Part shown: one piece after another, positions 3,487 through 39,455 of the stretch
Position numbering within the stretch: the first letter of the stretch is position 1
Layout of the letters: each line of letters opens with the position of its first letter
Assembly (NCBI GenBank): GCA_029213065.1
Contig: JARGPH010000013.1
Location: forward strand, 71,827-135,826
Source: Verrucomicrobiales bacterium
GTDB taxonomy: Bacteria; Verrucomicrobiota; Verrucomicrobiia; Verrucomicrobiales; DEV007
DNA: 64,000 bases
Direction: 5' to 3'
Translations under genes and position numbers: made by a program
Notes under the pieces: generated by a model
Database searches by the model: none
What the model was told of the DNA's origin: nothing
What the model saw: only the letters and a program-made list of their open reading frames with translations

Positions 3487-3881
3487 TATTCCGACTCGGA
3501 ATCTTTGAGGCCCGTATTCCGCCATTCCTCGCAGCCGGCCGAGGGGAGGCCGGTTCAGAAGACAGTCGCAGCAAGTCGCTGCGACTCTCATCCCTTGGTG
3601 TCTTCGTGCGAGAAAATCTCTCGAAACACAGGCATCCAACGAACAAAAACACAGCGTTTCGTATCCGAAAAGAAAGTTGGTATAGCTGAGATATTCGTAT
3701 TTTATAGAGAAGATATCAGTTAATTAATTCTACTTAATTATCAGTAGCGCCGAATGAAATATTACGGTGGTCTTGATTCGGCTCAAAGCCTTGACATATT
3801 TAGCCTGATCGGTTTTTATGAACTGGAAAAAGGTCCCGAATTCGAGATGTGATATCAGAATGGGTATGGGCTATTACTACT
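3487..3881. other. Gene-poor junction between rnr and first cassette cluster
   Basis: No convincing gene. A perfect 9-bp inverted repeat, AGTCGCAGC and GCTGCGACT with a 5-base loop, lies at 3564-3586. It has no T-run, so it is not a typical terminator. From about 3660 the sequence becomes much more AT-rich than the core genes, marking the left border of the accessory segment. Confidence 0.5.
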
Positions 3882-3888
3882 GTTCAGA
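3882..3888 (+). other. attC-type core half-site at left end of cassette 1
   Basis: GTTCAGA sits 7 bp before the first cassette gene and fits the GTTRRRY integron core at most positions. The end of the same cassette carries TCCGAAC (4501-4507), whose complement is GTTCGGA, one mismatch from this start. Matching of cassette start and end is expected if both derive from one circular cassette. Confidence 0.5.
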
Positions 3889-3894
3889 TAAGAA

Positions 3895-4533
3895 ATGAGT
3901 GTTAAGCATTCCCTTCCCCACTGGAATTACTATCGACTTCTCGAACAAGATCTCGAGGACAGTTTCAGATACGTACATTTCTGTCGGGATCATTTTGACG
4001 TCTATTCAGATCATTTTGCCCGGATAATTTTAACTGCAGCGACCGAAATCGAGAATGTATTGTATGATTTCGCAGTTTGGTCCAAGTATACACCAACACC
4101 TAAGAACATAGTTCAACATTTCGATTCTGTTACAGCTCGGTTCCCCAGCCTTCCTACGATGCAGATGGTTATGCCTCGATACTCCCTTATGTTAACTCCG
4201 TTTGAAGGGTGGAGCAGCGGGGCTTCACCCGAATGGTGGAGTAAGGGTTATAACAAGATAAAACATGAAAGAACTCATCATCCAGATGCCCCGAAGCTGA
4301 TCTATGCCACTAGGGCTGTCGCTGCACTGCAGGTGATTCTCCTTCACTACTACAGAGTGAAATTTGGGGCATGCACAATGCCTGCCGAACTGATGCCACG
4401 TTTATTTCATCCGTGGGATATTGAGGATCAGAATCATGGAGCATTCATTGGATGGGAATGGGAGCTTCCGGATGAGAAGTTAGAACGGGAGCAAGGCGAA
4501 TCCGAACAAGGCGCAGCACCTAATCCGGCGTAG
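3895..4533 (+). CDS. Hypothetical cassette protein with KIKHER motif
   Basis: A 212-residue, probably cytosolic, helix-rich protein that I do not recognise. It has no signal peptide or membrane segment. Notable features are the aromatic N-terminus, a long helix containing AATEIENVLYDFAVW, and WWSKGYNKIKHERTHH near residues 119-134. That last motif recalls HEPN-like helical proteins, in which a basic/His motif is functional, but the comparison is only by eye. The final 11 codons lie inside the attC-like site, a common arrangement in integron cassettes. Its base composition is clearly lower in GC than rnr or the NRPS gene. Function is unknown. Confidence 0.7.
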   Translation: MSVKHSLPHWNYYRLLEQDLEDSFRYVHFCRDHFDVYSDHFARIILTAATEIENVLYDFAVWSKYTPTPKNIVQHFDSVTARFPSLPTMQMVMPRYSLMLTPFEGWSSGASPEWWSKGYNKIKHERTHHPDAPKLIYATRAVAALQVILLHYYRVKFGACTMPAELMPRLFHPWDIEDQNHGAFIGWEWELPDEKLEREQGESEQGAAPNPA

Positions 4534-4623
4534 CAGGGAGTTTAGAATTGTCTTTCTTGGCTACACATCCCTCTTGCAATCAACTTCTTGCGCCCGCCGG
4601 ATCGGTGTGCTAAATCGTTGTGG
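4501..4623 (+). repeat. attC-like site 1
   Basis: It runs from the inverse core TCCGAAC to the core GTTGTGG. Inside it, the arm at 4513-4530 pairs with the arm at 4595-4610. The arms match over GCA, CACC and ATCCGGCG, with an extra unpaired G on the left arm and a small internal mismatch. Long imperfect arms with unpaired bases on one strand are the hallmark of attC sites. Core bases at the right end deviate from GTTRRRY. Confidence 0.65.
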
Positions 4624-4624
4624 C

Positions 4625-5098
4625 ATGAAAATTCTCGGGTGCGTTGTCTTGCTTGCAGTCGCACTTTCAGGTTGTTCAGAGCCGAAAGAGCGTTTCTGGG
4701 GATACGATTTCGAGTTGCCTTCAGAATTCATTCCTGTGAGCACGGATGTTGGGGGCGAGTGGCATTGGAGGACCGAAGGTGAGACACTTGAGGTAGGGCA
4801 CGTGCGATTTTCAAAGGAGAGGTCTAAGTTCTCCAATCTCGAAGAATTCGCCGGTTGGATTGGAAACGATTCGGGGATCGAACGGCCAAGCTTCAGACGA
4901 ACCCCGAACGGTTTGGATGTGGCTGTTGATGCCGTTGAGACTTGGACCCAAATCGCGATAGCCTTTCCAGAGAACACGGACTATTGGGAGATTCTTCTTT
5001 TCGGGATCAGCCCAGCGGAGCCGGATGACAGAGAGGCAAGGCTCCTTCGAGAGAGAGCGATTGGGGCTATTCTGAGCGGTCGTCCAACTCGAAACTAA
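4625..5098 (+). CDS. Cassette-encoded lipoprotein of unknown function
   Basis: A 157-residue protein. I chose the ATG at 4625 because it gives a short lipoprotein signal (MKILGCVVLLAVALSGC) with the lipidated Cys at residue 17. It also starts right after the attC core, as cassette genes do. The mature part is small, mixed-charge and tryptophan-containing, with no family that I recognise. It is probably anchored in the outer or inner membrane facing the periplasm. The gene fills almost the whole cassette between two attC-like sites and carries no promoter of its own that I can see. Confidence 0.7.
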   Translation: MKILGCVVLLAVALSGCSEPKERFWGYDFELPSEFIPVSTDVGGEWHWRTEGETLEVGHVRFSKERSKFSNLEEFAGWIGNDSGIERPSFRRTPNGLDVAVDAVETWTQIAIAFPENTDYWEILLFGISPAEPDDREARLLRERAIGAILSGRPTRN

Positions 5099-5102
5099 CA
5101 CG

Positions 5103-5230
5103 GCCACAACAAGACGGCGATCTCAAGCCCAATCCCCGCTGCGAGTTGATTGACTTCTCTGATTCGAATCCCTAATCTCCCATCGAGGCCGCGCTCTCTG
5201 GATAGGGTTGCCATGCCTCGACGTTGTGCC
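5103..5230 (+). repeat. attC-like site 2
   Basis: It begins with GCCACAAC, the exact complement of the GTTGTGGC core (4617-4624) that opens the same cassette, and ends with GTTGTGCC. Inner arms pair over CAA, CCC and ATC with an unpaired G in the left arm. The loop holds CGAGTTGATTGACTTC, which recurs in attC-like site 4. Confidence 0.7.
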
Positions 5231-5235
5231 AAGAA

Positions 5236-5715
5236 ATGAAGACGCCCCTAACAGCAATCGTGGTCTTAATTGTCTTTGTCGGAAGTGTGATTGCCGAAAG
5301 TGAGTGGACTCACAAGACCGAAGTAGGTGAGGACGCAACGAGCACTCACTACTACTTCTTCAAGTCGAACGGAGATTCCGTTGAGCAGGTGAGGTGGGTT
5401 TGGAACGGAGGTGCCCAGAATCCACCAACTGTCACCGACTACTTTCTGGGATCAGGCCGAATCACGGTCCGCCATCTCGTAGGGAAGCGAGATGATATCA
5501 CTGATCTAACTCTAGGACGGGAGGCCGATCTAGAGTTGAAGGAGGAGTATTCGATATCTGCCAAGTCTACTGCCGAAATGCTGATACCGGATCCACCGGC
5601 GAAATCACTTTCCGACACTCAGCGAGTAGACCTCAAGAACCTCATTTACCTGCTCGCCAAAGAGCGCAAGCCATACAAAACCGGGGCACAACAAGTCGAG
5701 ACACTCAAGCCCTGA
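5236..5715 (+). CDS. Cassette-encoded exported protein of unknown function
   Basis: A 159-residue protein starting at the ATG at 5236, the first in-frame ATG after the attC core. Residues 1-20 form a typical Sec signal (MKTPLTAIVVLIVFVGSVIA) followed by ESEW, so the mature protein is periplasmic or secreted. The mature part is polar and rich in Tyr, Thr and charged residues, with a predicted beta-rich first half (STHYYFFKSNGDSVEQVRWV). I do not recognise a family. The inverse core of the next attC lies within its last ten codons. It is the second exported protein in a row in this array. Confidence 0.7.
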   Translation: MKTPLTAIVVLIVFVGSVIAESEWTHKTEVGEDATSTHYYFFKSNGDSVEQVRWVWNGGAQNPPTVTDYFLGSGRITVRHLVGKRDDITDLTLGREADLELKEEYSISAKSTAEMLIPDPPAKSLSDTQRVDLKNLIYLLAKERKPYKTGAQQVETLKP

Positions 5716-5809
5716 CCGCGTCGAGTCAAAATGACTTTTCTAATTCGCCAGATTGTTCCACTATCAACCCGCGCTCTCCGTCAGGGCTGAGTGCTCTCAA
5801 ACGTCAGGC
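5685..5809 (+). repeat. attC-like site 3
   Basis: The left end GGCACAAC (5685-5692) is the exact complement of GTTGTGCC, which opens this cassette at 5223. Inner arms 5702-5718 and 5779-5793 pair perfectly over CACTCA, GCCCTGAC and G, leaving exactly two unpaired bases (A and C) on the left arm. The right core reads GTCAGGC, one base from GTTRRRY. Confidence 0.75.
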
Positions 5810-5832
5810 TCGGAATTGGCAAAGAAATCAAA

Positions 5833-6114
5833 ATGAAAAAGTACGAGATACACTCTTATACCGTAAAGATCATATCCGATTTCTCTCATAGAAATGTTGG
5901 AGCTATTGTTTCTTGCGCTTCAGAGGAAAAAGAAATCGAAATGCATTTCCAGTATGATGGTTTGGTTTCCCCGCCTCTGGTTGATAAGGAAGGGCATTTA
6001 CTTGTTTTCTTACCTTGTCAGGCTCTTGATACGGTCTTAACCCTACTAAGAACCAGTAAACAAAACATTCTGGTTCATGAAGAGGGTCGAGCGGAACTTC
6101 TCTCTAATCCATAG
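5833..6114 (+). CDS. Small hypothetical cassette protein
   Basis: A 93-residue soluble protein starting at the ATG at 5833 (MKKYEIHSYTVKII), chosen because it follows the attC core closely and the upstream codons lie in the attC arm. The composition suggests alternating strands and helices, with a hydrophobic C-terminal helix containing LPCQALDTVLTLLRTS. There is no signal peptide or recognised motif. The attC expected between this gene and the next (6115-6245) is not clear: GAGCGGAAC near 6090 and GTTTCAT near 6152 could be its ends, but the arms pair poorly. Confidence 0.6.
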   Translation: MKKYEIHSYTVKIISDFSHRNVGAIVSCASEEKEIEMHFQYDGLVSPPLVDKEGHLLVFLPCQALDTVLTLLRTSKQNILVHEEGRAELLSNP

Positions 6115-6245
6115 TCAGGCCAGACGCGGCTGGGCAAGGGCAATTCTCCCGACGTTTCATTGCCTCATACTTGATTTTGGTTAATAGTTTGCAGCGTCTT
6201 TTGTGGTTGCGGAGGACCTGCCTGCGCTCACTTGTTCGTCTCAAA

Positions 6246-6797
6246 ATGAAAATTGAAACTGAGAGGCTTATACTCCGTCCTTTTCGTGAGGAGGATCTCG
6301 ATGATGAACTGAGCATCGTCGGTGATGCCGATACGATGTCTTTTTACCGGAGACCATATACCAGAGAAGAAGTAGCCGGGATCATTGCTAGGAATATTGA
6401 GACATTCGAAGCCTCCGGCTATGGAATGTTCGCCGTAATTGATAAACAATCCGGAGAGTATCTCGGTGACTGCGGAATAACCATTCAGCTCATCGATGGA
6501 GTTGAAGAGTTCGAGGTCGGATACAGGATTCGAAAGGAAAAGTGGGGCCGGGGTATCGCACCGGAGGCAGCGCGCGCGATGATTCAATATGGTTTCAGGG
6601 ATCTCGGTTTGGCGAAACTTTGCAGCTACATGACGAAAGATAACCGTCAATCAAGACGGGCGGCTGAGAAGGCGGGAATGACTCTACAGAAGGAATATCG
6701 TAATCCGCGGAACCGGGATCTTCCAACGACGGTCTACGCGGTATACAGCCAGGACGTAAAAGTCGACGCCGGCGAAACCGACTCCGCTTCGAGTTGA
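6246..6797 (+). CDS. GNAT N-acetyltransferase, RimJ/RimL-like
   Basis: A 183-residue acetyl-CoA-dependent transferase of the GNAT fold. The start at 6246 gives MKIETERLILRPFREEDLDD, the standard opening of RimJ/RimL-type enzymes. Motif A, which binds the acetyl-CoA pyrophosphate, is seen as KWGRGIAPEAARAMIQYGF, with the final NRQSRRAAEKAGM segment typical of the family. RimJ/RimL-type enzymes acetylate protein N-termini, but cassette relatives often modify drugs or small molecules; the substrate here cannot be read. It sits in the cassette array, with its last codons inside the next attC-like site. Confidence 0.85.
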   Translation: MKIETERLILRPFREEDLDDELSIVGDADTMSFYRRPYTREEVAGIIARNIETFEASGYGMFAVIDKQSGEYLGDCGITIQLIDGVEEFEVGYRIRKEKWGRGIAPEAARAMIQYGFRDLGLAKLCSYMTKDNRQSRRAAEKAGMTLQKEYRNPRNRDLPTTVYAVYSQDVKVDAGETDSASS

Positions 6798-6877
6798 TTG
6801 ACTTCCCTGGGTCTACTCCCTAATCTCTCTGCGAGACTGCATTACCGAATCGGACTGCCAAGTCTCGGACGTTCCCT
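6771..6877 (+). repeat. attC-like site 4
   Basis: It runs from GGCGAAAC to GTTCCCT. Inner arms TCCGCTTCG (6783-6791) and CGAATCGGA (6846-6854) pair with one central mismatch. The loop carries CGAGTTGATTGACTTC and CCCTAATCTC, both also present in attC-like site 2, so the two sites share ancestry even though the ends are degenerate. Confidence 0.55.
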
Positions 6878-34713: not shown

Positions 34714-36285
34714 CTACTTCGCCGCTTCGTCTTTGAGGCCGTCCATCTTGCTGGCGTTGGCTCCCTGCGGTGCTTTCGGCCATGGCGTCTCTCCGGGAGC
34801 CCACTCGGTCGGCTGCGTTTTGCGGACTTCGTTGACTGCTTCGATCAACCATTCCGGAGTCTCGGTCTGCTCCTCAAGTCCGTAGACATAGGGAAGCGGT
34901 GGGTCCATGATCATGGGTTTGTCGCCGAGTGGAGGTCGCTCTTCTCCGGCTTCTTTGAGCCTTGCCGCGAGCTCTTTCACCAGCATCGGATAGTCGGCGG
35001 CGAGGTCGGTTTGCTCACCGGGGTCATCGACGATGTTGTAAAGCACGTCGCCCATGAGTTTGAAATCGCCGCGGCGAATCGTGGGGAGCCTGACACTGCC
35101 GGAAACATCGTAGATGATTTCTTTGCGCGGACTGTCCACGCCCTCGAAGAGCATCGCGGTCATGTCGAGACCGTCGACGGGGCGCTCCTGTTCATGGCTG
35201 CCTCCGGCGAGGGTGATGAAGGTGGGGAAAAAGTCGGCGATGAACATAAGCCCGTCTTTCGTCGTCCCGGGCTTGGTGTGGCCGGGCCAGCGAACGATCG
35301 CGGGCTGGCGGACGCCTCCTTCGTAGGTGGTGTTTTTCGTTCCCCGATAGGGCGCGCTCATCTCTTCGAGAACGGGACCGTTGTCATTCGAGAAAACGAA
35401 GAGGGTGTCTTCTTTGAAACCGTTGTCGTCGACGGCGTTTTTGATGCGACCAAGGGCACCGTCGAGGCTTTTCAGCATCGCATCGCGGATTGCGAGCGGG
35501 TCGTCGACATCGCCGTCAAACCCGGGGGGCGGGTTGAGCGGACCATGAACGGCGTTGAAGGCGACGTAGATGAAAAAGGGGCGGTCATCGTCTTTCCGCG
35601 CCTTGATGATCCGCTCGGTTTCGGCGGCGATGAGATCGGTCGCGTAGCCTTCCTCCTGAAGCGGCTTCTGATTGCGGTGCCAGTCGTAGACAGCGAAGCG
35701 GGCCGGGGCGTTGTGGACGATTGTCTTGTTGTAGTAGTCGATCCCCCAGGCGTAGTGACCATACTGATGCTCGAAGCCCTGACCCATCGGAAGGTGCTCG
35801 GGGAGCCATTCGCCGAGGTGCCATTTTCCTATCAGTGAGGTGAAATAGCCTTCCTCCTGCAGCGCTTCCGCGACGGTTCTTTCTTCGGTATCGATCCCGT
35901 GAATGATGCGGGTTTCTTCTCCGGATTCAGTGTGCGCGAGTTCCAATCCCAGTTTCGCGAGGTAGCTCGGTTTACCGAAATCCTCGGACCGCCAGTCGCC
36001 CCAGGTGCGGAAGGCGTAGCGTCCGGTGAGGAAGGCGGCCCGGGTCGGAGCGCAGACGCTGTGGGTGTAGTAATCGTTGAGTCGCATCCCCTCGGCTGCG
36101 AGGGCGTCCATATTCGGTGTCAGCGAGGTCTTCCCCCCGTTGAATCCCGGCTGAGCCCACCCCATGTCGTCGGCGAGAATAAAGACGATATTCGGTTTTG
36201 AGCCTCGTGGATCGGTCGCAGCGTGCGTGTCCGTGACTGCGAAGGCAAAAACGATGGCGAATAGGAAGAAGATCGAAGTTCTCAT
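34714..36285 (-). CDS. Exported sulfatase (CAPTR), arylsulfatase B-like
   Basis: A 523-residue sulfatase with a signal peptide (MRTSIFFLFAIVFAFAVTDTHA). NIVFILADDMGWAQPGFNGG holds metal-binding aspartates, and CAPTR starts at Cys78, giving formylglycine. GKWHLGEW is the second sulfatase signature. The overall form is that of arylsulfatase B/N-acetylgalactosamine sulfatase-like enzymes, which remove sulfate from glycans such as chondroitin or carrageenan; the substrate is not assigned. The gene stands alone. Downstream lies the inverted-repeat region, and upstream the AT-rich stretch before cassette cluster 2. Confidence 0.93.
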   Translation of the reverse strand: MRTSIFFLFAIVFAFAVTDTHAATDPRGSKPNIVFILADDMGWAQPGFNGGKTSLTPNMDALAAEGMRLNDYYTHSVCAPTRAAFLTGRYAFRTWGDWRSEDFGKPSYLAKLGLELAHTESGEETRIIHGIDTEERTVAEALQEEGYFTSLIGKWHLGEWLPEHLPMGQGFEHQYGHYAWGIDYYNKTIVHNAPARFAVYDWHRNQKPLQEEGYATDLIAAETERIIKARKDDDRPFFIYVAFNAVHGPLNPPPGFDGDVDDPLAIRDAMLKSLDGALGRIKNAVDDNGFKEDTLFVFSNDNGPVLEEMSAPYRGTKNTTYEGGVRQPAIVRWPGHTKPGTTKDGLMFIADFFPTFITLAGGSHEQERPVDGLDMTAMLFEGVDSPRKEIIYDVSGSVRLPTIRRGDFKLMGDVLYNIVDDPGEQTDLAADYPMLVKELAARLKEAGEERPPLGDKPMIMDPPLPYVYGLEEQTETPEWLIEAVNEVRKTQPTEWAPGETPWPKAPQGANASKMDGLKDEAAK

Positions 36286-36580
36286 ATATTAGGCATGTCT
36301 AGTAAATGCCAATTTGCCTGAGAAGGCGACAAAGAAACGCACTTTTGGTTGGGGTGTCTTGCGGGGCTGTTCGCGGCGTTTGGGGAGCAGGTTTGAGCTT
36401 ATCAGCTCCGATATTACGAATTCGGAAAAACTTTGAGAAAGTTCTTTCACGGGTTTTCTGGTTGCGTTAGCATCGCAGGTGAATTCCCGCCGTGAAGTTC
36501 TATACAGCAATGTCGCTTTTGTCCCCGGGCAGGCGACTGTCGCCAGTATGGAGGTAAAAGGGACGGCGGTAGATTATACT
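36286..36580. other. Gene-free stretch before cassette cluster 2
   Basis: No gene is supported. A small GGCAT/ATGCC hairpin lies at its left end. The final 60 bases are more AT-rich and lead into the attC half-site. Confidence 0.5.
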
Positions 36581-36588
36581 GTTAGTCC
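36581..36588 (+). other. attC-type core half-site at start of cassette cluster 2
   Basis: GTTAGTCC (36581-36588) is the exact complement of GGACTAAC at the end of the same cassette (37509-37516). This match is what excision as a circle would require. Confidence 0.7.
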
Positions 36589-36603
36589 GAGAAATTCCCT
36601 ACT

Positions 36604-37515
36604 ATGAACGTCCCCGACGATGTATGCAGCTGGTTTAAGGAGCAGTTCGCCCAATGTAATCAGCGAATATCACAAAAGATATCTCTGAATCCGAACACTC
36701 ACGAGCCATCTCTCGACATGACGTTCGTTGAGCATTTCAGTCAGCTCTCAGCGCCGAGGACGCTTTCTTCCGGTTGGACGGTGAGAATTGACACCCATTT
36801 CCTTGGAGGTTTGCGGCACTATCTCGGCAAGTGGGAAATAGCAGACATTGGTCTAATCGTTCACTACACTAAGGGATCTGAACACCTCCACTCAAAGGCC
36901 GCTGTGCTGCAGTCGAAGCGACTTTATCCTAAGAATAAGAACATCAAGGAAGATGTCGTCGAAGACTACATGATCGGGATGGCGCGGTTGAGTGATCCAG
37001 AAGATTTCCGCGTCCCGCCGCACCACGGAGCGACTTTCGACTTCAATGATGAATGCGCCTACGGCGCATTAAAAGTTAGCGACGAACAGTGGAAGGCAAT
37101 AAAGGATTACACCGAGAAGAGCAAAGTGCCGGTATACTACCAATTCTATAATCCTCTCAATATTCCATACTCTGCTTCGGTTCCGTTTAGCGGAAGCCCA
37201 GACATCGACACTTCCGTAGGCTTAGGGACACGAATTGTTCCCTCAGCAGATATATTTAAGCGCCTCGGGGGAATGACGCCTGGCTCATCACCAAAGATTT
37301 CCGATCTATCGGGGCTTCAAGATGCGGCGCAGTATTTTGGCTGGAGCTTGGAATATTTTGTCGCCGGACTTCTAATACCATGTATCGAAGGGTATCGATA
37401 CAAAAGTTTGGCCGATGAGAATATCGAGCGATTGTTCTACCGCCGTTCGGGGGCGATAGCCTCAGCAGTTGCTTTCACCTTGGAGGCTCCAGAGGACTGG
37501 AAAATGGAGGACTAA
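36604..37515 (+). CDS. Cassette protein, possible PD-(D/E/Q)xK nuclease fold
   Basis: A 303-residue soluble protein. Its central part reads GKWEIADIGLIVHYT, then about 13 residues later KAAVLQSKRLYPK. An aspartate followed at this spacing by QxK on a strand resembles the QxK form of the PD-(D/E)xK nuclease core seen in Mrr-type restriction enzymes. This is by eye and low certainty; two-metal catalysis cannot be shown. Other motifs include HFLGGLRHYLG before the core and a hydrophobic helix near the end (YFVAGLLIPCIEGY). The stop codon TAA lies inside the inverse core of the following attC. Function is unknown; defence is a guess from the context. Confidence 0.7.
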   Translation: MNVPDDVCSWFKEQFAQCNQRISQKISLNPNTHEPSLDMTFVEHFSQLSAPRTLSSGWTVRIDTHFLGGLRHYLGKWEIADIGLIVHYTKGSEHLHSKAAVLQSKRLYPKNKNIKEDVVEDYMIGMARLSDPEDFRVPPHHGATFDFNDECAYGALKVSDEQWKAIKDYTEKSKVPVYYQFYNPLNIPYSASVPFSGSPDIDTSVGLGTRIVPSADIFKRLGGMTPGSSPKISDLSGLQDAAQYFGWSLEYFVAGLLIPCIEGYRYKSLADENIERLFYRRSGAIASAVAFTLEAPEDWKMED

Positions 37516-37634
37516 CAAGGAGTCGATCCTAACGCCTTCCCCGCCGCGAGTTCAACCGGCCATGACCATTCAACCATCAACCCAGAAGTCGGAGCGCGCC
37601 CTCGGTCAGGCGTAGGATGACTTTGACGTTAGGT
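37509..37634 (+). repeat. attC site between the two cassettes of cluster 2
   Basis: The left inverse core is GGACTAAC and the right core GTTAGGT matches GTTRRRY exactly. Arms at 37521-37536 and 37609-37623 pair over AGTC, ATCCTA and CGCC. They leave exactly two unpaired bases on the left arm (a G and an A), the extrahelical bases that orient integron recombination. This is the most complete attC in the window. Confidence 0.88.
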
Positions 37635-37641
37635 GCAGAAA

Positions 37642-38256
37642 ATGAGCGCAGAGCCAGATATCTCCATGTATTGCGATCAGATGGAGCTAGTTAAGAAGCG
37701 CATCGATGTGATTCTCTATTTCGAGCGAGGACAGGGCGGATCACTCTATGTGGCTTCGGCGATCGAATCAGTTTACCTGCAATTCAGGAAGATTCTCGAA
37801 CTGATCGCCATGGCTTCACTGGTTGCCAATAAGGAAGTGTATTCGCGCGAGCACAGCAACTTTGAACGGCACTGGAATGCTCGAAGGATGCTTGAATCAC
37901 TCGAGCGCTTCAATCCGGAATTTTATCCCAAGCCAATCATCGAACAAGAAGGCGGATTTAATCTTGTAGACAAGGAAGATGGATTTCTGACTCGAGAGGA
38001 TTTTGTGACCCTGTATGGGCTATGCGGCGCAATCATGCACACAAACAATCCATACGGAGAACAAACAGACTATGGCCAATACCAATCCCAGATCACCCGG
38101 TGGCGGGAACTGATCATCGGCTTGCTCAACAACCACAAGATCCACCTGCTTGACGATCCGAACATGTATGTGATCCACATGCAGGAAGATCGCGATAACA
38201 AGGTTCACGCTTATACGTTCGCACCCGTGCCTCGTGGACAACAACCAAGCACCTAA
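37642..38256 (+). CDS. Hypothetical helix-rich cassette protein, HEPN-like by eye
   Basis: A 204-residue soluble protein; I take the ATG at 37642 rather than a GTG nine bases upstream that lies inside the attC core. It is helix-rich, with VYLQFRKILELIAMASLVAN in the first half and LYGLCGAIMHTNNPYG further on. A conserved-looking Arg/Lys helix followed by a His-containing helix recalls HEPN proteins, but the exact RxxxxH signature is not seen. The TAA stop forms part of GCACCTAAC. The gene fills its cassette exactly, and no function can be assigned. Confidence 0.68.
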   Translation: MSAEPDISMYCDQMELVKKRIDVILYFERGQGGSLYVASAIESVYLQFRKILELIAMASLVANKEVYSREHSNFERHWNARRMLESLERFNPEFYPKPIIEQEGGFNLVDKEDGFLTREDFVTLYGLCGAIMHTNNPYGEQTDYGQYQSQITRWRELIIGLLNNHKIHLLDDPNMYVIHMQEDRDNKVHAYTFAPVPRGQQPST

Positions 38257-38257
38257 C
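38249..38257 (+). other. Orphan attC inverse core at end of cassette cluster 2
   Basis: GCACCTAAC is the exact complement of GTTAGGTGC, which opens the same cassette (37628-37636). The right half of this attC is missing; about 70 bp later a tandem repeat begins, so the site seems truncated. Confidence 0.7.
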
Positions 38258-38325
38258 AAGTCGCGCCTCCCGCAGCGATAGAACGGTTCCCCCGAGTTCT
38301 TCGAGTTGCGGCACTGATATTTGGA

Positions 38326-38371
38326 TGTTTTATGGGACAGACAAATAGTGTTTTATGGGACAGACAAATAG
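38326..38371. repeat. Exact tandem 23-bp duplication containing GGGACAGACAAATAG
   Basis: Two perfect 23-bp copies (38326-38348 and 38349-38371) stand side by side. Each contains TATGGGACAGACAAATAG. A diverged copy with flanking bases lies at 39421-39455, so the nucleotidyltransferase pair is bracketed. Sequences of the GGGACAG type are known next to RAYT/IS200-like transposase genes, but no transposase is present here. Confidence 0.75.
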
Positions 38372-38560
38372 CGTGAAAAAATCAGGTTCGAGCCCCGTAC
38401 CTCAGTGACTCACAAGGGCAGAAGCGAGATTGACTCAGGAAATGCGTTCTGCACTATGTCTGAGTTACGAACATTGGCACTCAAACCGCTGTCACCGAGG
38501 TAAATCAATTGTTTATCCCCACATCACTTAAAATCCCGAGCCGAATTTTAATCGAAAACC

Positions 38561-39124
38561 CTACCGGGATATCTCGTCGATGATCTCGTCCAACCCTCTG
38601 ATGCGGTAGCTTTTACACAACTCCCGAATCCGATCGATGTCTGCGTCCGGGTTCCGTGTCAACAGTTCGGCGACATCCGCTTTCGATTTCAGGCCGCCTG
38701 CATAGAGTTTCAGGACGATAAGGTGGGCAAGAGGTGCCAGTCGCAGTCGGCTGCCCGGTTTTACGGTTAGGTTTGCTACCTTGAGAGCATCCGAGATAAC
38801 GGCAGGAAAGGTCTGGCCAAAATTAACGATTTGTACGAGACCGAACTCTCCTGTTACATCAATGACACCCGAGAAGGGATCGGCACCATCCGGTTCCCGA
38901 AGTTCAGTCTGAAAACCGCCGACTCGCAAAGCGTCCGTAATTTTGCGAAGAGTTGCCAGGTCGGTGTTGACCCCGAGATCGATATCTTCGGTGTAGCGTA
39001 TGTAGCGGTGGGCCGCGAGCGCTATTGCGCCGATGACTATGGCCTCGACCTGAAATTCTTCCAAAATTGCTGCAACCTTTTCTGCAGCATGAAGATTAGC
39101 TTCTGCTTCGCTCATCCGGCTCAT
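38561..39124 (-). CDS. Nucleotidyltransferase-fold protein (AbiEii-like)
   Basis: A 187-residue protein of the DNA polymerase beta-like nucleotidyltransferase superfamily. The core motif is IVIGAIALAAHRYIRYTEDID, where TEDIDLGV carries the paired aspartates that bind metal; a helical C-terminal part contains LAHLIVLKLYAGGLKSKADV. This is the pattern of AbiEii/MNT-type toxins or small NTPases acting on RNA or protein. It overlaps the upstream small gene by 29 bases on the same strand, as in toxin-antitoxin pairs. An alternative start lies 9 bases downstream of 39124. Confidence 0.85.
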   Translation of the reverse strand: MSRMSEAEANLHAAEKVAAILEEFQVEAIVIGAIALAAHRYIRYTEDIDLGVNTDLATLRKITDALRVGGFQTELREPDGADPFSGVIDVTGEFGLVQIVNFGQTFPAVISDALKVANLTVKPGSRLRLAPLAHLIVLKLYAGGLKSKADVAELLTRNPDADIDRIRELCKSYRIRGLDEIIDEISR

Positions 39125-39420: not shown

Positions 39421-39455
39421 GCTTTAAGAGACAGGCAAATAGTGTGAATAATCAG
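39421..39455. repeat. Diverged copy of the repeat at 38326-38371
   Basis: GAGACAGGCAAATAGTGTG with flanking TTTAA and AATCAG matches the second left copy and its flank at most positions. It lies on the other side of the nucleotidyltransferase pair, in direct orientation. Confidence 0.6.

Follow-up and report, generated by a model that had tools for sequence, protein, structure and literature searches.

Paired gene cassettes behind an orphan attI-like leader point to a probable polycentric integron in a Verrucomicrobiales genome

Results

Cassette and attC structure at the locus

The window analysed here is a stretch of 64 kb (C3:71827-135826) from a draft MAG of a Verrucomicrobiales bacterium (5.9 Mb in 80 contigs, 96% complete and 3% contaminated). 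It contains two cassette clusters, and the one studied here, at 36581-38257, consists of two cassettes preceded by an attI-like leader (Table 1). Each of the two cassettes starts with a sequence exactly complementary to its own inverse core (R''), and both stop codons lie inside the inverse core, as a first-pass annotation of this DNA had described.

Table 1. Cassette-related features of the 64-kb window (positions are those of the window)
Feature	Position	Strand	Remarks
Orphan attI-like leader, family B	3775..3881	+	~81% identical to the C75 and C32:67k leaders, cassettes behind each
First cassette cluster	3882..6877	+	attCs at 4501-4623, 5104-5229, 5686-5809 and 6753-6877; CM 43.6-90.8 bits
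Orphan attI-like leader, dock family D	36395..36580	+	ends GACGGCGGTAGATTATACT directly before GTT
Inverted repeat within leader D	36511..36565	+	degraded in the window; 26-bp arms fully matched in C41
GTT recombination boundary = cassette 1 start	36581..36583	+	homology with congener G023 (34715-36583) ends here
Cassette 1	36581..37627	+	starts GTTAGTCC at 36581, own R'' GGACTAAC at 37509; ends complementary
Cassette 1 ORF, 303 aa	36604..37515	+	no known family
Cassette 1 attC	37510..37634	+	CM 96.4 bits, E 3.2e-21
Cassette 2 body	37628..38257	+	starts GTTAGGTGC at 37628, own R'' GCACCTAAC at 38249-38257; ends complementary
Cassette 2 ORF, 204 aa from ATG (207 aa from GTG 37633)	37642..38256	+	no known family
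Cassette 2 attC, truncated	38249..38300 (right edge approximate)	+	R'' and part of L'' only

The attC and the cassettes are of known kinds. We scored the sites with a covariance model (CM) built from 23 attCs that lie on other contigs of this genome, the sites of the window being excluded. The score obtained for the cassette 1 attC (Table 1) supports the site that the first-pass annotation had proposed and had suggested checking in this way. Throughout the window only five sites scored, this one and the four of the other cluster, with no further site up to an E value of 1. The two extrahelical bases described earlier are present in the arms, whereas L'' and L' pair over 13 bases and not over 14. 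Across 55 attCs, all 15 stem pairs covary and 93.6% of cells are paired, versus 31-39% in slid controls. Of the pair, only the cassette 1 attC shows the complete R''-L''-loop-L'-R' order with the conserved fold; from 38249 onward the model gave no match, and the following sequence contains no L'/R' matching the second attC. Moreover, nothing in the window matched Rfam.

The fold-energy check that had also been suggested would, taken alone, have failed this attC. The bottom strand has a z of -1.11 (25 of 200 shuffles did as well) and the top strand a z of -0.42. Single-sequence fold energy is uninformative as an attC test: by that measure, this site does not stand apart from its shuffled versions.

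Right of the truncated second site, TTTTATGGGACAGACAAATAG-like repeats at 38320-38400 and 39425-39450 flank a nucleotidyltransferase-like ORF (38561-39124); these are possibly the remains of a small mobile element. The truncated attC had been left out of the first-pass annotation, as had the repeated leader before cassette 1 and the integrases elsewhere in the genome.

Cassette-encoded proteins

Neither cassette ORF had a match in Pfam, NCBIfam or PADLOC. Relatives of the cassette 1 protein (31-39%) are carried by Rubrobacter, Rhizobium and Methylobacterium plasmids, and a relative of the cassette 2 protein (47%) by a Halomonas plasmid; a search of viral contigs returned no relatives of either. 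AlphaFold models built without alignment reached pLDDT values of 42.7 and 35.4, respectively, which is too poor for searching. The cassette 1 product may be PD-(D/E)xK-like and the cassette 2 product HEPN-like.

The leader in front of cassette 1

The leader of cassette 1 belongs to a dispersed family, family D, with three copies in the genome: the one in the window, C41:59328-59516 (77%) and C77:39751-39899 (73%). Cassettes lie behind each of them. The window locus was also found in the congener G023 (63% complete, and in which no integrase was seen), where the order sulfatase, leader D, EI24 is conserved. DNA identity between both genomes is 81% up to the GTT at 36583 and then stops, and the G023 leader is followed by a different cassette carrying its own attC. 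The leader has therefore been inherited in place while cassettes change; the difference between the two cassettes could be ancient rather than the result of current activity.

When the four copies of family D are compared, a mean pairwise identity of 0.93 over the final 22 nt falls to 0.30 beyond GTT. This family has no integrase-linked member, so we assign it putatively to attI by its position, its boundary and its behaviour.

Leader D also contains an inverted repeat, whose fold z is -12.8 in the C41 copy, -9.1 in G023, -2.05 in the C77 copy and -1.77 in the window. With only four sequences compared, 91.3% of cells are paired versus 36-50% when slid, and six pairs changed on both sides, with some compensatory change. 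In the C41 copy the palindrome (L034 9347-9401) is located 15 nt before the GTT crossover, which is unusual for an attI.

The other cluster of the window, next to rnr

The first cluster of the window starts at a leader of another family, family B, and is located after rnr. In G023 and the other congeners examined, no attC follows rnr. An exact empty dock site was not obtained, the intergenic flanks of the rnr locus being too diverged and synteny on G023:C172 breaking after its dock. One cassette of this cluster (4616-5194, within 4616-5229) is 96.7% identical to a cassette of the congener G006 (G006:C53, L160 8358-8935), which belongs to an array of 19 attCs, whereas rnr is only 74% identical between both genomes. 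Dock cassettes have therefore been mobile recently, by lateral transfer.

Cassette clusters across the genome

About 20 clusters in the genome together contain no fewer than 59 attCs, a lower bound since not every candidate was scored. In nearly all clusters the start of the first cassette matches its own R'', which fixes the 5' edge of the array. Nearly all of them also begin at a leader from one of a few dispersed families, which ends with an A/T-rich stretch and ACT directly before GTT. About 17 such sites are orphans, that is, attI-like leaders of ~100-200 bp with separate short arrays and without an integrase gene, scattered over the chromosome.

Family A corresponds to the sequence between the integrase of contig C48 and its array; 12 of its copies are intact (11 without integrase) and one is degenerate. 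Over the 30 nt preceding GTT, mean identity among the intact copies is 0.89, and it drops to 0.33 past that point. As expected for an attI, family A lies at an intI-array junction with a GTT crossover, and this is the case beside three integrases (C48, G004:C58 and G005:C261). In 15 of 18 copies, a promoter-like pair (TTGCTA / CATTCT, 17 nt apart) is found at a fixed distance of 62 nt from GTT, and we consider this block as a putative promoter. Multiple family-A copies also occur in other congeners and in named Verrucomicrobiales MAGs; in G018, a family-A leader adjoins the same gene as the dock at C41:11k of the genome studied here. Family B comprises three orphan copies, including that of the window; a relative that has diverged lies next to the C2 integrase. 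Families B and D show the same boundary behaviour as family A.

Neither the break-up of a single array nor insertion at random accounts for the clusters. The first-pass annotation had offered either dispersed cassette insertion or array breakage for the two clusters of the window. The former is supported, but the sites are not arbitrary, as the leaders form families of attI-like paralogues dispersed in the genome. The latter found no support: a 5' leader of its own, with its end at GTT, and a matching first-cassette start were seen for nearly every cluster examined, and pieces of one broken array would lack these.

Integron integrases of the genome

The first-pass annotation had seen no integrase in this DNA. 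This holds for the window and for the whole of contig C3, so that neither window cluster is a complete integron with intI adjoining its array. It does not hold for the genome, in which three integron-integrase genes score above the TIGR02249 cut-off (327, 323 and 315 bits), each adjoining an array. Action in trans is therefore possible. The C2 (470 aa) and C32 (465 aa) integrases are open and the C48 gene is frameshifted; the C2 protein matches the integron integrase 2A3V (2.9e-62) in an alignment that includes the catalytic region. A tblastn search of the genome located integrase sequence only at these three loci, and no remnant at the orphan clusters examined.

The C48 integrase is the only one in the genome linked to a family-A copy. 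Its gene (L014 6872-8291) is split into ORFs of 172 and 305 aa, yet its attI family has the largest number of dispersed copies. Both intact integrases (L013 8555-9952 and L017 9787-11199) carry an N-terminal extension of ~120-150 aa before the SAM-like domain, for which no Pfam match was found. A REP-associated tyrosine transposase-like gene (L017 6520-7600, minus strand) directly follows the C2 cassette array.

A duplicated attI in a closed chromosome

G028, a one-contig chromosome from the same order, carries several clusters of attCs as well as two genes for integrases. An integrase-less cluster (2.73 Mb) and an integrase-linked array (2.97 Mb) share a 98-bp leader that is 94.9% identical, the copies being about 240 kb apart. 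The shared segment has a sharp left edge before intI and its right edge at GTT. An integrase-linked attI is duplicated elsewhere in G028 without its integrase, and the dock pattern, seen in a single contig, is no assembly artefact. Besides a 125-bp attC family, G028 (L133-L135) contains many near-identical shorter attCs (~106 bp), and one of its integrases is transcribed in the direction of its cassettes, as in Treponema.

Discussion

We conclude, with a probability of roughly 0.8, that the cassettes at 36581-38257 occupy an orphan attI-like dock as a cluster of two, and that the genome functions as a polycentric integron. Weighing against this are the frameshift in the C48 integrase, the lack of an integrase-linked copy of family D, the decayed hairpin of the window leader and the draft state of the MAG, G023 being only 63% complete. 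A more detailed model for Verrucomicrobiales-type bacteria is held with less assurance, though we still favour it. Here, the promoter and attI leader would form a dispersed element, and an integrase acting in trans would distribute and swap cassettes among some twenty docks, each expressing its own first cassette. In the main reading, the leaders, scattered over the chromosome without an integrase gene, would provide the crossover of attI, and those of family A also a promoter-like block. An integrase encoded elsewhere (C2 or C32, both intact, or the frameshifted C48) would join the folded bottom strand of a cassette attC to a dock at G^TT, a step that we infer from established integron biology. 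Each dock would thereby gain, lose and perhaps express its own short array. Presumably, particular integrases would be paired with particular leader families, and the docks themselves would have spread.

Clusters of attC sites without an integrase (CALINs) have been proposed to originate from off-target insertion, intI loss or rearrangement (PMC8618304). The docks could thus be relics of complete integrons that were duplicated and lost their integrase genes, with cassettes now only decaying, and the truncated second attC, the frameshifted C48 integrase and the degenerate state of some docks fit such an intI loss. We regard this history as unlikely, although it fares best among the alternatives: the unit duplicated in G028 is the leader alone, cut sharply before intI, no integrase remnant is seen at the orphan clusters examined, one dock of the window holds a cassette nearly identical to that of another species, and the cluster next to rnr has no counterpart in congeners.

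An ordinary CALIN formed by off-target insertion at an attG site is quite improbable. Insertion at attG has been reported (Loot et al. 2024, as cited in PMC11023631) and likewise places cassettes away from the integrase, in trans. However, attG sites are neither attI nor attC, and are reported to diverge from att sites and to be widely distributed. The docks here are attI paralogues or attI-like repeats, and the sequence upstream of cassette 1 belongs to a repeated family that ends exactly at GTT and whose copies found in the genome all precede cassettes. Finally, breakage or misassembly of a single integron, suggested by the draft state of the MAG and by two integrase arrays at contig ends, is hardly credible given docks inside long contigs, a window locus syntenic in G023, the same pattern in the single contig of G028 and an own leader for nearly every cluster.

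The polycentric arrangement resembles several known systems. Like CALINs, defined by at least two attCs and no intI, the window clusters are attC-bounded cassettes with no integrase nearby, the pair having one intact and one truncated attC and the other cluster four; they differ in that the clusters here start at dispersed paralogous attI-like leaders. Sedentary chromosomal integrons (Vibrio, Xanthomonas, Treponema) share an IntI with a 2A3V-like catalytic region, an attI and a homogeneous attC family. Authors working on Treponema give a single attI per integron as the rule (PMC3607928), versus about 17 orphan attI-like sites here. Integrase-less clusters also recur at conserved non-ilvD positions of the chromosome in related Xanthomonas species (PMC12444791); compared by description only, these differ in that a shared attI-like leader goes unmentioned in what that source describes of them. 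Delta-attI cassettes of class 1 and 2 integrons also place attI sequence outside its usual position, but as fragments inside cassettes of one array (PMC12901181) and not as chromosomal docks. We searched the open-access literature for multiple, orphan or duplicated attI, and dispersed attI docks were not described there. Within that literature, dispersed paralogous attI docks thus appear to be new. IntegronFinder 2.0 has dropped the attI search from its defaults, on the grounds that attI is little characterised outside class 1 (PMC9024848).

Cassette clusters without an integrase occur commonly, and the usual explanation is decay or off-target insertion. Numerous attI docks relying on a remote integrase offer a concrete and testable alternative. 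The leader families provide sequence sets for dissecting attI function outside class 1 integrons. If the polycentric arrangement is true, standard tools wrongly class as CALINs cassette sites that are active, and attI would be an evolvable, spreading element. Moreover, one integron could then insert new captures at numerous places on the chromosome simultaneously and express them there.
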